Assembly: GCF_000591035.1 (NCBI RefSeq)
Contig: NC_022521.1
Coordinates: 992,001-1,056,000 of the forward strand
Direction of reading: 5' to 3'
Source of the DNA: Aeropyrum camini SY1 = JCM 12091
Lineage (GTDB): Archaea > Thermoproteota > Thermoprotei_A > Sulfolobales > Acidilobaceae
DNA length: 64,000 bases
In this document: positions 29,568-37,087 of the stretch, one piece after another
How positions within the stretch are numbered: position 1 is the first letter of the stretch
Layout: each line of letters starts with the position of its first letter
Made by a program: the position numbers and the translations under genes
The notes under the pieces: model-generated
Databases searched by the model: none
Told to the model about the DNA's origin: nothing
What the model saw: only the letters and a program-made list of their open reading frames with translations

Positions 29568-30998
29568 ATGGGGGAGATGGTAGAGCTTAAGAAGGAGCTC
29601 CTGAGGGATGTGGACCTTGCCGAGAGGCTTCTCGGGAGAGAGAGGCCTGTTAAGACCGAGATCGAGATCAGGGGTAAGATCACTAGGAGCACTATAGAGG
29701 AGATAAGCAGGATTAAGAAGGAGCCGGAGTGGATGAAGAGGCTGAGGCTTAGGAGCCTGGAGCTTTTCTACAAGCTTCCAACACCCAAGTGGCTAGCCGG
29801 GATAGATGTGATAGACCTTGAAGAGATGATTGTCTACTCGAAGCCCGAGACAGACAGGGCCTCGAGCTGGGATGAGCTGCCTAAGGAGATTAGAGAGTTC
29901 TATGAGAGGCTTGGCCTGCCCGAGATAGAGGCTAGGTTCCTGAGCGGCCTGAGCGCTGTTTTCGACAGCGAGACGGTGTATGCTAGGGTGAAGAAGTATC
30001 TCGAGGAGAAGGGAGTTATAGTCATGCCTATCGAGGAGGCAGTCCAGAAGTATCCAGACCTTGTTAAGAAGTATTTCATGAGGGTCTTCCCGCCAAGCGA
30101 CCACAAGTTCGCGGCACTCCACGGCGCCCTCTGGAGCGGCGGCACATTCATATACGTCCCGCCCGGTGTTAAGATCAGAGAGCCTATAGAAAGCTTCTTC
30201 CTGATAGGCAAGAGTGGCGAGGGCCAGTTTGAGCACAGCCTCATAGTGGCTGACGAGGGGGCCTACGTCGAGTGGATCGAGGGCTGCAGCGCTCCAAGGC
30301 TCACGAAGTTCAGTTTCCACGACGGCATGGTAGAAGCGTACGCCCACAGGAACGCTACTATAAAGATCATAACGGTCCAGAACTGGAGTAAGGACGTGAT
30401 AAACCTGAACAACAAGAGGGCTATAGCCGAGGAGGGGGCCAGGGTTGACTGGGTAGAGGGTAGCATTGGCAGCAAGATGACCTTCGTCTACCCGAGCACT
30501 ATACTCAAAGGCGACAACAGCTCCAGCAGGAGTGCTGTGGTGACAATAGCCAAGGGGCCCTACCTGAAGGATAGCGGTAGCAAGATGATACACGTCGGCA
30601 GAAATACTAGGAGTCAAGTTATAAACAAGACCATTAGCGCCGATGGCGGCATCAACGTCTACAGGGGTATAATAAGGATAGTGAAGGGGGCTAAGAACGC
30701 TGTGGCCAATGTCGAGTGTGAATCCCTAATACTCGACGACAAGAGCAAGGCCCATACCTACCCGCACAACCAGGTGGACGAGCCAACGGCAAGCGTAAAC
30801 CACGAGGCAACCACAGGAAGGCTCACAGAACCGCAGCTCTTCTACCTAACCAGCAGGGGCCTAACAGAGGATGAGGCGAAGAGCCTAATAGTCCTGGGGT
30901 TCCTGGAGGACGTGCTCAAGGAGCTGCCATTCGAATACGCCAACGTGCTTACTAAAGTCGTCAGGCTGGAGTTCAGCGAGTACGGAGCATTCGGCTGA
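29568..30998 (+). CDS. sufB: Fe-S scaffold protein SufB
   Basis: Core scaffold subunit on which Fe-S clusters are built with SufC and SufD. 476 residues, typical length. It contains HGALWSGGTFIYVPPGVKI, the parallel beta-helix with SLIVADEGAYVEWIEGCSAP, and, near the C-terminus, NVECESLILDDKSKAHTYP and NHEATTGRLTEPQLFYL, the most conserved blocks of the family, including the candidate ligand cysteine in VECES. It is 72 bases from sufC and 47 from sufD. Confidence 0.97.
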   Translation: MGEMVELKKELLRDVDLAERLLGRERPVKTEIEIRGKITRSTIEEISRIKKEPEWMKRLRLRSLELFYKLPTPKWLAGIDVIDLEEMIVYSKPETDRASSWDELPKEIREFYERLGLPEIEARFLSGLSAVFDSETVYARVKKYLEEKGVIVMPIEEAVQKYPDLVKKYFMRVFPPSDHKFAALHGALWSGGTFIYVPPGVKIREPIESFFLIGKSGEGQFEHSLIVADEGAYVEWIEGCSAPRLTKFSFHDGMVEAYAHRNATIKIITVQNWSKDVINLNNKRAIAEEGARVDWVEGSIGSKMTFVYPSTILKGDNSSSRSAVVTIAKGPYLKDSGSKMIHVGRNTRSQVINKTISADGGINVYRGIIRIVKGAKNAVANVECESLILDDKSKAHTYPHNQVDEPTASVNHEATTGRLTEPQLFYLTSRGLTEDEAKSLIVLGFLEDVLKELPFEYANVLTKVVRLEFSEYGAFG

Positions 30999-31045
30999 GC
31001 CGGAGTAAACCTCGAGCCGCTCCAAGTGTCAGGCGGTGGCGAGCC

Positions 31046-32221
31046 ATGGCTTCCACTATAATAGCTAGGGATGAGCTTAGGAAGCTAGTTAAAGAGCTTC
31101 CGTTTCAGGAGATAGCTGACACTCCGACGGTGAAGTACTACACCGACTGGAAGGTCTACGAGAGGCTTATGGACCTAGACTATGCTGACTCCACTGACAC
31201 CCTACCGGAGCACCTGGCCAATAACGTACAGCAAAAACCCGCCATCACGCTGGGCACCGATCTTACTGTGGGTGTACTACCAAAAGGTGTTAAAGCCGAG
31301 AAGTTTGACTTGGAGAGCGCGTCAAGCCTGGAGGGTCTGAAGCCCTTCACCCTAGTTAGGGCTGACGGGGGCAGGATGCAGGCTTACCACGTGCTAAGGT
31401 TTAACCTTGGTGTGAAGGTGACTGTGGAGCCTGGAACGGATTTCGGGAGCCTTGTTATAGCCAGCCTAGGAGGCCCGGGTTACCTAGGTCACCACATAGT
31501 TGTGGAGGTGGGTGACGGCGCTAAGGGGGAGATAATCTATATTGACTATGTCACATCACCCGGGCTGAAAACCACTGTTTTAGAGGGCAGGGTTGGTAAG
31601 GATGCGGAAGCTAGTGTAACCAACATTGTTATCCACGGCAGTAGAAGTGCAGTTTACACTCTCAGAGCCTTTGAAGCCCTGGATAAAGCCTCCATACAAC
31701 AGTATTACCTGATAAGCGGCGGCCGCATGACTAGATTCCAGGACGACAATCTCCTCGACGGCAGGCTCTCTAGCCTCAAGGCCCTTGCCAGCACGGTAGC
31801 CAGGCCAAACACGGCTAGCGACGTCATAATAAGCAGCCTCCACAGAGGACCGGAGAGCGAGGGAGAGGTGAGGGCTAGGGGCGTTGTAGTAGGCAACGGC
31901 TACCTAGCGCAGCGCGGCGTAGCTATGCTTGGTGAGACAGCTAGGCTAGCGGCTTCGGAGGTGGAAAGCTACATATTCCTCTTGAGCGAGAAGGGCAAGG
32001 GCTATGCAGTCCCCGTGTTAGAGATACATACAGGCGAAATAACCAGGGCTGGGCACTCAGCCGCCGTAGCGAGCCTAGCAGAGGACACTATATTCTACTT
32101 GAAGAGCAGGGGACTAGACGACAAGGACATTGTAACCCTCGTAATGGAGGGTATAACAAGGTTCTCAGGCGTTCTCGAGAAAATGGAAATACCCTTCAAC
32201 TGGCTCATAAACCTCGAGTAG
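31046..32221 (+). CDS. sufD: Fe-S assembly protein SufD
   Basis: Beta-helix partner of SufB, 391 residues. It is more divergent than SufB, as usual: an N-terminal helical region, a central beta-helix (TLVRADGGRMQAYHVLRFNLG, VEVGDGAKGEIIYIDYV) and a conserved C-terminus with LEIHTGEITRAGHSAAVASL and FYLKSRGLDDKDI. The conserved histidine in RAGHSA corresponds to the family's cluster-assembly site. It ends 44 bases before the convergent coiled-coil gene. Confidence 0.92.
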   Translation: MASTIIARDELRKLVKELPFQEIADTPTVKYYTDWKVYERLMDLDYADSTDTLPEHLANNVQQKPAITLGTDLTVGVLPKGVKAEKFDLESASSLEGLKPFTLVRADGGRMQAYHVLRFNLGVKVTVEPGTDFGSLVIASLGGPGYLGHHIVVEVGDGAKGEIIYIDYVTSPGLKTTVLEGRVGKDAEASVTNIVIHGSRSAVYTLRAFEALDKASIQQYYLISGGRMTRFQDDNLLDGRLSSLKALASTVARPNTASDVIISSLHRGPESEGEVRARGVVVGNGYLAQRGVAMLGETARLAASEVESYIFLLSEKGKGYAVPVLEIHTGEITRAGHSAAVASLAEDTIFYLKSRGLDDKDIVTLVMEGITRFSGVLEKMEIPFNWLINLE

Positions 32222-32265: not shown

Positions 32266-34653
32266 CTACTCCCTCAGCCTCTCTTTAGCCTGGTCGAGCT
32301 TTTCCTCAGCTTCTTCTAGCAGGTCCTCGGCCTGGCTTATATCATCCCTAGCCTCGCTCACGCTGCCAGAGCTCAGCTTGTCAATAGCGTCCTGCAGCTT
32401 CTCGAGAGCCTCAGCGATTTTGCTTCTCGCCTCCTCTATAAGTCTAATGGCCTCATTGTCGCCCATTCTCCTAGCCTTGGCTTCGAGCTTGGCAGCTTTG
32501 CTGTTGAGCTCGGCCGCCTTCTCCCGGAGTTCTTCTATCATATGATGCAATTCCTCTATTAAATCTCCTACAGCCTGCTCTACCATATCCCTAATCTCGC
32601 TCGCCGTGGACGCGACCTCCTCTATTAAATCTATAGCCTCTCCGATTTTCTGTCTAGCACTCTCTATATCACCATCTCTCGCGAGGCTTGCCGCTTCCTC
32701 TAGCAGGCTCTCAGCCTGGTCTAGCTTCTGGAGAGCCTCCTCTATGGCCGCCTGGATATCTTCGGTGAGCATACCAGCCTTTCTAGCCTTCTCGGCTAGG
32801 TCCTCGATCTCATCGCGCAGCTCTTCCACTCTGTCGAGCAGCTCTTCAACCTGGTTTAAGAGTTCGGAAGCAGCTTCATGAGCGGCTTCTATAGCCTTCT
32901 CAGCTAGCTTTTCGGCCTCCTCCGCGGTAGATGCAGCCTCCTCGGCCAGGGTTATAGCCTCGCTATAGCGGCCATTCCTGTAAGCCTCCTTTGCGGCCTC
33001 TAGCTTCACTCTCGCCTCCTCCAGCTTGTTAACAGCCTCCTCAACGGCTTCCGAGCCGGATAGCTGGGCGGCTATCTGTAGCTTGGTCTCTGCTTTAGCC
33101 AGCTTATTCTCAGCCTCTTCTATGGCCTCCCTAGCCTTCTCAGCATACTCCTCGATAACCTCTAGTACAGCTTCAGCTGTGTCAAGCTTGTTATCAGCCC
33201 TCTCCACTGCAGCCTCTGCCTGAGCTATTCTCTCCTTAGCCTCCTCGATCTTCCCCTCATCTAGCAGACTTCTGGCCTCCGCCAGCAGGGTGGAAGCTCT
33301 ATCCAGGAGGGCTCTAGCCTCATCGAGCATCTCCTGTACATAGCTCTGGCCTGCAATAGCTGCTTCCTGCTCCAGCCTGTCAAGCTCCTCCTGGAGCTCC
33401 TCTATCTCAGCCTCAATCTTGGCCATCTCTGCTAGAACCTCCGTTTCAACAGACTCCTCGGCCTCTTCTGCAGTGGTGGTAGTCGTTGTGGTAGTAGTAC
33501 CAGTAGTACCGGTGGTCTCGGTAGCTGTCGGCGTGGCGGTGCCAGTCTCACCCCCGCCACTGAGGAGGACTACCTCTGCTGCTGAAGCCAGAGCCTCCGC
33601 TTTGGCTAGGTAGCCTTGTGCCCTAGCAATCTCCCTCATGATCTCGCCTACCTTAGCTCCTTCCTGCAGCAGTGCATTGGCTGCGTCTAGCCTCTCCCTA
33701 GCTTCCGCTAGTGCTTCTTCAGCCTCCTCTAAGAGTTTCTTTGCCTCAGGGTTCTGGTCGAGCTCGGTGCCATACTCTCCCTTAATAGCATCTATCTTGG
33801 CACTTATATCCTGGTATATGACCTCAAGTTTTTGTATCCTCGCCTCTATTATCCTCTGTACCACAGCCTTACCGACACCACTTCCATGGTCGCCGAGGGC
33901 TGTGGTGGAGGCTGCAATGCTCTCTAGTATCGACCTTGCCAGTAGCACACCACTCAGGGCGCTTTCGAGGGCAACCTCCGCCTCTCCACCGTCTTCCGCC
34001 TCGATCTCCGCTTTCAACTGTTCAAGCTTGGAAGCCACCCCGCTGAGAATCTCTATAGCCCTTTCCACACCCACGGCCTGGGTTGAGCCTACTGCTGCAA
34101 CCTCTATTGCACCCTCAGACTCAACTGTAGCCTCAGCAGCGGCGAGTACGTTTATCGCCTTAGCCGGGTCTCCCCTCGCCGCCTCCCTTAGAGCCTTAGC
34201 TAGGTCGATCAGAATAGGGTCTCCTCTATCCCTTCCAAGCTTCTCCAGAACTATTGAAGCCCTTGCCAGGACCTCCCTTGTTTTAACCTGGCTGACAGCC
34301 TCTTCGTCTATCCTCTCCGCTATCATCTGTCCTATCTTCTCATTAACGGCTATCCCTAGCTGTGCAAGCCTTCCAGCCTCGCTAGGCGAAAGGGAGCGTG
34401 GATCTTCCAGTGCAGCTATCTCCTCAACAACACCCCGCTCGTCCTCGTCAAGCATCTGGAGGAGCCAACTATGCTTCTCTAGCACTAGCCTGAAGTTGAT
34501 GGAGAGAACTTCTAGAACAATGTACGGACTAACGGCAAGGTTCATGCTGGTGTTAACGCTTTCCTGGGCAGCTGCAACAGCGGGGGCCACTGTTGGCAGT
34601 AGTATAGTAAACACGAGAGCAATTCCAGCCAGTTTTAGTCTCCAGAAGCTCAC
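32266..34653 (-). CDS. large secreted coiled-coil protein
   Basis: A 795-residue exported protein. A signal peptide (KLAGIALVFTILLPTVAPAVAAA) is followed by a helical region (about 35-370), a Thr/Glu-rich linker containing nine consecutive threonines (about 375-400), and a second, very regular helical region to the end built from Glu/Ala/Lys/Leu-rich heptads with recurring LLEEA and AEEAE units, most probably long antiparallel coiled coils. No transmembrane anchor is visible at the C-terminus and there are no cysteines. The family is unknown to me. It is divergent from a membrane-bound winged-helix regulator across a palindrome-rich promoter region, which suggests co-regulation. It might be a surface-layer-associated stalk or sensor. 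Confidence 0.72.
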   Translation of the reverse strand: MSFWRLKLAGIALVFTILLPTVAPAVAAAQESVNTSMNLAVSPYIVLEVLSINFRLVLEKHSWLLQMLDEDERGVVEEIAALEDPRSLSPSEAGRLAQLGIAVNEKIGQMIAERIDEEAVSQVKTREVLARASIVLEKLGRDRGDPILIDLAKALREAARGDPAKAINVLAAAEATVESEGAIEVAAVGSTQAVGVERAIEILSGVASKLEQLKAEIEAEDGGEAEVALESALSGVLLARSILESIAASTTALGDHGSGVGKAVVQRIIEARIQKLEVIYQDISAKIDAIKGEYGTELDQNPEAKKLLEEAEEALAEARERLDAANALLQEGAKVGEIMREIARAQGYLAKAEALASAAEVVLLSGGGETGTATPTATETTGTTGTTTTTTTTTAEEAEESVETEVLAEMAKIEAEIEELQEELDRLEQEAAIAGQSYVQEMLDEARALLDRASTLLAEARSLLDEGKIEEAKERIAQAEAAVERADNKLDTAEAVLEVIEEYAEKAREAIEEAENKLAKAETKLQIAAQLSGSEAVEEAVNKLEEARVKLEAAKEAYRNGRYSEAITLAEEAASTAEEAEKLAEKAIEAAHEAASELLNQVEELLDRVEELRDEIEDLAEKARKAGMLTEDIQAAIEEALQKLDQAESLLEEAASLARDGDIESARQKIGEAIDLIEEVASTASEIRDMVEQAVGDLIEELHHMIEELREKAAELNSKAAKLEAKARRMGDNEAIRLIEEARSKIAEALEKLQDAIDKLSSGSVSEARDDISQAEDLLEEAEEKLDQAKERLRE

Positions 34654-34694
34654 ACCACCTCACCTCCAGGCTTCCGCAAACCTTGTCCGGCTTA

Positions 34695-34762
34695 GTTCCT
34701 AATTTAAAACCCTATGGAACATCAACTCTAGAACCAGGTTCCATTGGATTTAGGAACGTTCC
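34695..34762. promoter_or_regulatory. cluster of GGAAC/GTTCC palindromic sites in divergent promoter region
   Basis: Half-sites GTTCC (34695-34699) and GGAAC (34716-34720) flank AATTTAAAAC (34701-34710), which reads as a TATA-like element for the leftward coiled-coil gene. GAACCAGGTTC (34731-34741) and GGAACGTTCC (34753-34762) are complete palindromes. Six half-sites in under 70 bases are unlikely to be chance and fit a dimeric regulator; the divergent winged-helix protein is the obvious candidate. A separate TATA-like CATTAAAAC (34797-34805) serves the rightward gene. Confidence 0.6.
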
Positions 34763-34840
34763 GCCTCTTGGAAAGTATCGGTCTATCGGCTGGTGGCATT
34801 AAAACTCTCAGGCCAATAAGGTGCTCGGGGTGCTACCCGA

Positions 34841-35785
34841 ATGACCAGCTGGAGGGGTGAAACTGCTTCGGGACGTGCAGCAGTGTTACTAATACTCGTG
34901 CTAGCAGGGATCCTGATCGCCAGTCACACAGCCTTGGCGCAGGAAGAGGCTGGCATAACTGATGTCGAGGTGACTATTAGGAGCGATGGGGTGGCGGAGG
35001 CTAGGGTCTGGGCTGAGGCTGGACCTGGCCTAGCTAGTATCCAGCTCCCTACCCCCCCAATTTTAGCCACTATACTGGTTACAACAGCTGATGGTGGTAG
35101 TATACCTCCTATAGTCGAGGGAAACACACTTATAGTACCCCTTGAGGAGAAGACCCTGCTGGAGATAACTTACCTCGTGGACACAAGGGCTAGCGATGGT
35201 GTTTTCAGCTTTGACGTGACCCCTCCAGGTGTGCCCGTGACGCTTGTTGTGGAGCAGGGAATAATCCTCTTGGGCCTCCCCTCCGGAATAACTTCCTATG
35301 ACAAGAAGGACAGTACTCTCGAGATAGTGTTTAGCGAGCCCTCAACCATATCCTTCGTCCCGGCAGAATACGCCACCAATACAGCAGCAGTTGGAGGAGG
35401 CGCCGGGACTAACAATACACCTACTGAAGCTGAGGCTAGAGAGGGATGGGGACTACTCCCGGTTATAGTAGCCATTATTCTTGGCGTCATACTATTGGCC
35501 GGGGGAGCGGCATTCTACGTGTATAGGCGGGGGAGCGGCGGTAATAATGTTGAGGCAGTTGTTACTACCCTAGATTCAACTGATAAGCTCATACTTGACA
35601 CCCTGAAGAGCTCCGGGGGCACTTCCGAGCAGCCTGCCCTGCTGAGGGCTACTGGCCTCCCCAAGTCGACGCTCTGGAGGAGGCTGAAGAGGCTGGAGTC
35701 TCTTGGTTACGTCAGGATTATAAGGAAGGGTAAGACAAATGTCGTAGAACTTGTAAAGCATTACGAGGATGAGAGCAAGAATTAG
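34841..35785 (+). CDS. membrane-anchored winged-helix regulator with extracytoplasmic domain
   Basis: A 314-residue one-component membrane regulator. A signal sequence (about 10-33, ending in ALAQ) is followed by a beta-rich extracytoplasmic domain (about 35-195), a Thr/Asn-rich linker, one transmembrane helix (about 206-228, PVIVAIILGVILLAGGAAF) and a cytoplasmic winged helix (about 245-308) in which LLRATGLPKSTLWRRLKRLESLGYVRI is recognition helix plus wing entry. This MarR/ArsR-like DNA-binding end on a membrane protein is known in archaea (COG2512-type). It is divergent from the secreted coiled-coil gene, whose product could be its ligand or target. The ATG at 34841 was chosen. Confidence 0.78.
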   Translation: MTSWRGETASGRAAVLLILVLAGILIASHTALAQEEAGITDVEVTIRSDGVAEARVWAEAGPGLASIQLPTPPILATILVTTADGGSIPPIVEGNTLIVPLEEKTLLEITYLVDTRASDGVFSFDVTPPGVPVTLVVEQGIILLGLPSGITSYDKKDSTLEIVFSEPSTISFVPAEYATNTAAVGGGAGTNNTPTEAEAREGWGLLPVIVAIILGVILLAGGAAFYVYRRGSGGNNVEAVVTTLDSTDKLILDTLKSSGGTSEQPALLRATGLPKSTLWRRLKRLESLGYVRIIRKGKTNVVELVKHYEDESKN

Positions 35786-35902: not shown

Positions 35903-37087
35903 ATGAGCCAGCAGCCAGAGTGTAGGGTTGAGGGTAACTATATAGTCGTCCCAAAGGGCTTGGTTAACGTTATCGTTGACGAGACTAAGATTAGTGGTGT
36001 TGATCCCAAGGGCGAGGCCACGATATATAGGGGGTATACTATAGAGGATATCGGCGAGCACGCCAGCTTCTACGAGGCGGCGCATCTGATACTCTTCGGC
36101 AGGCTCCCATGCGACGAGGAGCTGAAGGAGATAAGGTCTAAGATAGACAAGTATAGGGGTCAGATCCCTGAGAAGCTGTTTGACGCTATGAAGCACGTCC
36201 CGGTAACCCACCCTATGTTCTACGGGATCTATGGTACGGCGCTCCTCGGCCAGTACTACGCCCCTGAGTGGAGGTTCGACGAGGACTTCCTATACGACCA
36301 TGCCCTGAGGCTCGCAGCACAGCTGCCTGTTATCTTCACCACAGGCTGGAACCTCGCTCACCACGGCACATTCCTGAGGCCCGACCCGAGCAGGGACCAC
36401 GCCTGGGATGTGCTCAGAATGATAATAATGAGGGAGCCGAGCGATATCGAGGCGAGAGCTTTTGAGTCGACGCTAGTGCTCTACATGGACCACGGCTTCA
36501 ACGCATCTACATTCACCACAAGAGTTATAGGGAGCACGCTCAGCGACCTCTACAGCGCTGTAGCAGGAGGTATAGCAGCCCTTAAGGGCCCACTACATGG
36601 AGGAGCCAACGAGAAGGCTATGGAGATGTTCCTTGACGCGATGAAGAAGGCCGAGGAGAAGGGTGTGCCACTATACGACTACATCGAGGAGTATATTAAG
36701 GAGAAGCTCGCCAGGAAGGAGAAGATAATGGGCTTCGGCCACAGGATCTACAAGCTACACGATCCAAGGACCGACGTCGCAGCCAAGTTCGTCGCCAAGC
36801 TCAAGGACGGGGAGTTCTGGATGAAGGTGCTGAAGAAGGCGGAGGAGGTTATGTGGAGGGAGAAGAAGATACCCGCTAACATAGACCTATACACAGCAGT
36901 CCTCTACTACCAGCTAGGCATACCCATACCCATGTACACGCCGATATTCGCCATGGGCAGGGTGGTCGGCTGGAGCGCACACTATATAGAGCAGGTTCTA
37001 AACAACAAGCTGATAAGGCCCACAGAGAAGTACGTGGGCCCGACCGGCCTCAAGTACCAGCCTATCGAGGAGAGATGTAGGAGGTAA
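35903..37087 (+). CDS. gltA: citrate synthase
   Basis: Condenses acetyl-CoA and oxaloacetate to enter the citric acid cycle. The 394-residue length fits the archaeal dimeric type. The active-site regions are clear: GPLHGGANEKAMEM (first catalytic His), GFGHRIYKLHDPR (second His) and the preceding NASTFTTRVIGST. It is a single gene with a TATA box and converges on the CitG-like gene. 2-Methylcitrate synthase activity is a common side reaction of such archaeal enzymes. Confidence 0.95.
   Translation: MSQQPECRVEGNYIVVPKGLVNVIVDETKISGVDPKGEATIYRGYTIEDIGEHASFYEAAHLILFGRLPCDEELKEIRSKIDKYRGQIPEKLFDAMKHVPVTHPMFYGIYGTALLGQYYAPEWRFDEDFLYDHALRLAAQLPVIFTTGWNLAHHGTFLRPDPSRDHAWDVLRMIIMREPSDIEARAFESTLVLYMDHGFNASTFTTRVIGSTLSDLYSAVAGGIAALKGPLHGGANEKAMEMFLDAMKKAEEKGVPLYDYIEEYIKEKLARKEKIMGFGHRIYKLHDPRTDVAAKFVAKLKDGEFWMKVLKKAEEVMWREKKIPANIDLYTAVLYYQLGIPIPMYTPIFAMGRVVGWSAHYIEQVLNNKLIRPTEKYVGPTGLKYQPIEERCRR

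Follow-up and report, generated by a model that had tools for sequence, protein, structure and literature searches.

The divergent gene pair

A divergent pair of genes was analysed within a 64,000-nucleotide stretch of the genome of Aeropyrum camini, a member of Acidilobaceae in the phylum Thermoproteota (contig NC_022521.1, positions 992,001 to 1,056,000; referred to as the window and numbered from its first letter). One gene (32266–34653, minus strand) begins with a GTG codon with GGAGGTG 5′ of the start and encodes an exported helical/coiled-coil protein of 795 aa, termed the partner. The other (34841–35785, plus strand) encodes a membrane-tethered winged helix-turn-helix (wHTH) protein of 314 aa, termed the regulator. 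Both open reading frames (ORFs), and the layout given for them in a first-pass annotation, were confirmed. The pair is flanked by SUF genes (sufB and sufD; 29568–32221) on one side and by the citrate synthase gene (35903–37087) on the other.

Architecture of the regulator

Sequence and AlphaFold model gave the following order for the regulator: a signal-peptide-like segment, a beta domain, a Gly/Thr linker of low confidence, a membrane helix and a C-terminal wHTH domain. The hydropathy profile contained two hydrophobic segments. The beta domain (residues 38–174; 34952–35362, plus strand) was modelled with predicted local distance difference test (pLDDT) scores mostly above 95, and the membrane helix (residues 206–232; 35456–35536, plus strand) ends on the inner side in the two Arg residues of YRRGSGG, in line with the positive-inside rule. 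The winged helix (residues 246–304; 35576–35752, plus strand) was assigned from the model and by Pfam, where the protein passed the curated cut-offs of HTH_24 (E 1.2e-8, 34.8 bits against 21.9) and DUF7343 (E 2.9e-7, 30.7 bits against 27.6). An exterior beta domain, a single membrane helix and an inner wHTH had been proposed earlier and were borne out by model, hydropathy and Pfam; the beta domain is thus predicted to lie outside the cell and the wHTH in the cytoplasm. The recognition helix, KSTLWRRLKRLESL (35663–35704, plus strand), holds a Trp that predicts the DNA motif TGRAAC described below.

No significant match was returned by a PDB sequence search with the regulator. Its ectodomain weakly resembles the N-terminal beta domain of M1 aminopeptidases (Foldseek, E ~1e-4, probability 1.0, 5–14% identity). 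Identity with such an enzyme was rejected, the catalytic HEXXH-containing domain being absent from the 314-aa sequence, and the resemblance is one of fold only.

Architecture and families of the partner

The N-domain of the partner (residues 31–372; 33538–34563, minus strand) is the part with homologues in other families and belongs to the type defined below as B; its model was all-helical, with thirteen helices and a mean pLDDT of 82. It is followed by a Thr-rich run (residues 378–394; 33472–33522, minus strand), which corresponds to the poly-Thr linker noted earlier but is recognisable only in the closest species and not in the other four members of the genus. The remainder (32269–33471, minus strand) consists of helical-hairpin repeats, seen as repeated matches to profile columns ~250–350, whose number varies by species. 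The protein ends in KLDQAKERLRE and has no C-terminal transmembrane (TM) segment. In the orthologue at locus L062, an N-terminal hydrophobic segment was read as a signal peptide by hydropathy, with no second membrane segment. Partner length ranged from 739 to 1625 aa within the genus and from 302 to 1625 aa over all families, with very different sequences.

Pfam and NCBIfam searches with the partner returned coiled-coil background only (EzrA, SMC, Rad50). The best Pfam match, EzrA, was rejected, as it scored 32.9 bits against a curated cut-off of 39.6 and covered the coiled-coil region only. Foldseek with the N-domain gave nothing significant, and a hidden Markov model of residues 30–285 lost most of the distant relatives. 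Distant partners were related by profile–profile comparison of their N-terminal regions (HHalign), which gave two families. In type B, the Aeropyrum profile matched those of Geothermarchaeota (99.5%), family f2 (98.5%), f3 (97.6%) and f8 (96–97%); in type A, the Geothermarchaeota A profile matched f1 genera g11 and g12 (99.9%) and g5 (97.5%). Most cross comparisons among these equally helical regions gave 0–13%. A few intermediate values (Geothermarchaeota A against f2, 79%, and against f8b, 75%) suggest that the two families may be distantly related. Some partner C-termini (L079, L081, L084, L128, L136) form Asp/Glu-rich or His-rich tails, a composition that suggests metal or cation binding outside the cell.

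Distribution and linkage

The divergent arrangement was kept in all six Aeropyrum-genus genomes. The regulator family was present in 145 of the 157 genomes of the host's order (25-row alignment) and in 192 of 299 genomes, or 83 of 129 genera, of the phylum sample. A gene within two genes of a regulator was scored as a secreted helical neighbour if its product was at least 300 aa long, carried a hydrophobic segment at the N-terminus, contained no more than two TM segments, and had higher helix than strand propensity and a Pro plus Gly content below 12.5%, helix being scored by composition; ORFs four or more genes away served as background within the order. By this rule, 40 of 88 regulators in the order (45%) had such a neighbour, compared with 3 of 666 background ORFs (f1, 19/29; f2, 4/4; f3, 6/10; f4, 2/3; f6, 2/5; f7, 1/16; f8, 4/6; f9, 0/12; f10, 2/2; f11, 0/1). 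The named reference loci, a set that partly draws on these genomes again, gave 29/44. In an independent set outside the order, the same rule gave 39 of 60 regulators (65%) against a background of 3/287.

The two genes were found codirectional, divergent or convergent; the linkage therefore does not reflect one inherited promoter arrangement. In family f13 they overlap by 1–8 bases. The first-pass annotation had named conservation among relatives as a check on its proposal, and genes unlinked in all relatives as grounds for dropping it; linkage was kept far beyond the genus, in all orientations. Every type A or type B profile match in the examined loci fell within two genes of a regulator, and three Geothermarchaeota loci (L081, L085, L111) hold an A and a B pair side by side. 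Assignment of the partner labels to a 106-row regulator tree needed a single change, so the two partner families match two regulator clades.

Several further gene arrangements were recorded. In genus g36, type-B partner genes at L180–L183 and L190 stand apart from any regulator and adjoin purine-biosynthesis-like genes, but TGAAAC sites are retained close to a TATA-like box. Two g36 genomes have, next to the partner, a protein that resembles the regulator in ectodomain and TM segment but has no wHTH. Proteins of this kind also occur beside partner or regulator genes at L179 (3577–4380), L186 (4229–4873), L142 (6846–7763) and L173 (5474–6268) and could be co-receptors or decoys. Regulator homologues of f9 that have no long helical partner (L156–L158, L161, L163, L169, L170, L172, L176) instead have as neighbours one or two small secreted proteins of a recurring type (~160–230 aa), which may be another target of this regulator family. 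Soluble proteins at L068–L072, with an N-terminal wHTH like that of the regulator, adjoin a multi-TM transporter-like gene and form a separate family.

Operator sites and promoters

The intergenic region of the window contains an operator region (34695–34762) made up of GTTCCTAA (34695–34702), TGGAAC (34715–34720), GTTCCA (34738–34743) and GGAACGTTCC (34753–34762), with TGGAAC/GTTCCA and GGAACGTTCC as palindromes. A TATA-like box of the partner gene, TTTTAAAT (34702–34709, minus strand), adjoins the TGGAAC/GTTCCA site, so that the partner promoter reads GTTCCA-TAGGG-TTTTAAAT; a possible TATA-like box of the regulator gene, CATTAAAA, lies at 34797–34804 on the plus strand. The palindromes reported earlier proved real: across the region in the six genus genomes, GGAAC/GTTCC was the most over-represented 5-mer (30 observed, 2.25 expected) and was present in all six.

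A GGAAC count upstream of regulators outside the genus gave no signal, because the region was the wrong one and the motif too narrow; use of the partner promoter and of TGRAAC resolved this. The consensus was drawn from divergent pairs of other families, which repeat GTGAAAC and TGGAAC. Partner promoters of clade B contained 65 TGRAAC sites against 3.8 expected (17-fold). Those of clade A contained 4 against 3.1 expected, and 45 copies of GGGAA against 5.4. Outside the order, promoters beside Trp-type regulators held 66 TGRAAC (10.6 expected) and 11 GGGAA (15.1 expected), the sites often forming the dyad TGAAAC-N5-GTTTCA. Unlinked g36 partner genes kept TGRAAC as well (12 observed, 2.1 expected). 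Neither motif was enriched in regulator upstream regions lying apart from the partner promoter; where the two promoters are separate, 3 sites were seen before the regulator gene against 3.4 expected. Control of both genes from a common promoter, as suggested in the first-pass annotation, is therefore plausible only where the promoter is shared, as here: regulatory sites do lie in the shared region, but they are those of the partner gene's promoter.

Neighbouring sites were mostly 9–12 bp apart, about one helical turn. Arrays of this spacing, together with the dyads, suggest that multiple wHTH units line up along a single DNA face, which would fit clustered membrane receptors. The distance from site to TATA-like element was used in place of an AT-content profile around the sites, which was uninformative. 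Of 28 promoters, 14 had a TATA-like element 6–9 bp beyond a site (null 12%); the out-of-sample figure was 13 of 23 (null 17%). The full site TGGAACN(1-20)GTTCCA was found genome-wide only at the pair locus in three of the five Aeropyrum-genus genomes searched. The closest relative had two and the window's own genome seven, so a few further targets are possible there.

Recognition-helix residue and motif class

One recognition-helix position, that of the Trp in PKSTLWRRL, predicted motif class without exception: all 51 loci that could be scored paired either Trp with TGRAAC or Tyr with GGGAA. Among them, L084, L090 and L146 are basal in clade B and have Tyr, GGGAA and a partner of type B; in a further ten, the partner could be assigned to neither the A nor the B family. 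The motif tracks the DNA-binding residue and not the partner family. Regulators at L241–L244 (family f19) and L248 have His at this position, possibly a third DNA specificity; L241–L244 had no secreted helical neighbour by the rule above.

Interpretation

The pair is best explained as an ancient one-component signalling system that controls the partner gene from the membrane, a reading to which we assign a probability of about 0.75. Its firmest part is that the linked regulator directly controls the partner gene, which is highly probable given the linkage, the homology among partners, the match between partner family and regulator clade, the confinement of the motif to partner promoters and the match between residue and motif. 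Physical binding of the regulator to the sites is very likely, and regulation of transcription from the membrane is predicted from the promoter motifs.

In the proposed mechanism, the regulator would span the membrane once and bind, from there, TGRAAC arrays or dyads. With the bound half-sites ending 6–9 bp before the partner gene's TATA-like box, the regulator would set partner transcription. The partner would accumulate outside, beside the exterior domain of the regulator. The pair is probably an outside-in homeostat, whose regulator would receive feedback from the state of the envelope or from the partner itself; sensing of either is plausible. Because the sites lie directly upstream of the transcription factor B recognition element (BRE) and TATA box, as with the archaeal activator ArnR, the regulator probably acts as an activator, a sign we hold with moderate confidence. 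Feedback by the partner itself is attractive since the partner is a conserved companion that shares the compartment of the ectodomain, and we put it forward tentatively. We also offer, as a speculation, that an envelope homeostat, with a membrane-tethered transcription factor dedicated to one secreted helical protein, existed in the common ancestor of Thermoproteota and Geothermarchaeota and was duplicated into two pairs, their DNA specificity split by a single Trp/Tyr change in the recognition helix, and that the beta domain serves to measure directly how much of the system's own gene product is outside.

Several points weigh against the proposed system. Families f7, f9 (Sulfolobaceae-like), f19 and f28 are mostly without a recognisable partner; in g36 most type-B partners were unlinked in an order-wide search with the partner N-domain; and the f13 partner promoter lacks the motif. 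The counts given above share ancestry and are not phylogenetically independent, and start codons, including that of the partner, are mechanical calls. Residue and motif each switch only twice on the tree, too few for an independent-pairs test, and the Trp/Tyr rule is therefore strong in pattern and small in independent events. Out-of-sample regulators carry Trp except for five with His, so the Tyr half of the rule rests on in-sample loci. TGRAAC was defined after some in-sample promoters had been viewed; at the clade-B loci unseen at that time (L079, L080, L081, L085, L111, L124, L125, L128, L135, L137, L138, L142, L084, L090, L146), 35 sites were observed and ~6.4 expected.

Among the alternatives, the most serious accepts that the regulator controls the partner and proposes that it senses something unrelated, such as heat, salt or a small molecule, the partner being no more than an output such as an adhesive protein or a stalk on the surface. 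The wide variation of partners (302–1625 aa), set beside an ectodomain that keeps one recognisable pattern, makes this a real possibility, yet the exclusive pairing of one regulator with one target across the phylum is what a feedback pair would be expected to show, and partner family and regulator clade go together. Repression of the partner gene (and of the regulator's own), released by an exterior signal, is unlikely: the operator does sit in a shared divergent promoter and the additional Aeropyrum half-site GTTCCTAA touches the partner TATA region, but in most families the sites stop 6–9 bp short of the TATA-like box, covering neither it nor the start, which is the usual position of archaeal activators, and no site was found at the regulator gene in convergent and separate-promoter arrangements.

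Regulated proteolysis, with the regulator cut inside the membrane and a wHTH fragment released, would suit the flexible Gly/Thr-rich linker before the TM segment and the Gly-rich linker after it; no protease gene was seen linked to the pair in the loci inspected, where no dedicated test was made, and we consider this route improbable. That the linkage merely reflects gene order passed down by descent, or surface-protein genes clustered by chance, with the regulator acting elsewhere, is the least credible proposal by far. The surrounding suf and citrate synthase genes are also conserved within the genus, and g36 has unlinked partners. Against this, the pair persists across families that differ in its surroundings and orientation, and the background rate of such genes is ~1%; the motif is restricted to partner promoters, including those of unlinked partners; and the pair locus is the sole full site of the genome in three of five Aeropyrum-genus genomes.

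Envelope sensing in such archaea is barely known, and the membrane-bound regulators described in the literature searched were ArnR and ArnR1. The pair extends through the phylum, including families resembling hyperthermophiles and ammonia oxidisers. With a decoded operator, a predicted specificity residue and a single obvious target, it opens a widespread route of archaeal signalling to direct testing and offers a way into a large family of secreted helical proteins that lacks annotation.

Comparison with known systems

Transmembrane transcription regulators (TTRs) are a known kind of protein, of which the pair represents an ancient variant; in the open-licence papers searched, no published description of the pair and nothing relevant on COG2512 or DUF7343 was found. 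Small secreted helical proteins under a membrane sensor are known from CpxP/Spy with CpxA and from ZraP, and CpxP feeds back on its sensor. Those sensors are two-component kinases and the proteins are unrelated, so the analogy is functional only. S-layer stalk proteins of the SlaB type are exported coiled-coil proteins with Thr-rich stretches that end in a membrane anchor; the partner shares the exported coiled coil and the Thr-rich stretch, but not the C-terminal TM anchor. In ToxR and CadC the wHTH stands at the N-terminus, and the family layout (N-terminal OmpR-type wHTH, TM segment, C-terminal periplasmic domain) is reversed in the regulator, which has a C-terminal wHTH and enters the membrane by a signal peptide. 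No OmpR-type domain was present among its Pfam matches.

The regulator combines a predicted DNA-binding domain with a membrane-spanning segment in a single protein, two features of TTRs, and so resembles ToxR, TcpP and CadC as a predicted one-component system (PMC10269533). In the passages of that survey consulted, TTRs are counted in Thermoproteota and no pair with a secreted helical target is described. Several bacterial TTRs likewise have a companion gene adjacent (ToxS, TcpH); the companion here differs in being large, secreted and helical, and in doubling as the predicted regulatory target. The closest archaeal parallels are ArnR and ArnR1 of Sulfolobus acidocaldarius, membrane-bound HTH activators (PMC6396743). 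ArnR has an N-terminal HTH, HAMP-like and sensor domains and two C-terminal TM helices, and its TCGAC-N5-GTCGA boxes lie at −43 to −84, upstream of the BRE/TATA of the target surface-protein gene flaB (PMC6396743). The regulator shares with ArnR the nature of a membrane-bound archaeal HTH protein and the placing of sites upstream of the BRE/TATA of the predicted target gene, but its own layout runs from signal peptide through beta domain and TM segment to a C-terminal wHTH.

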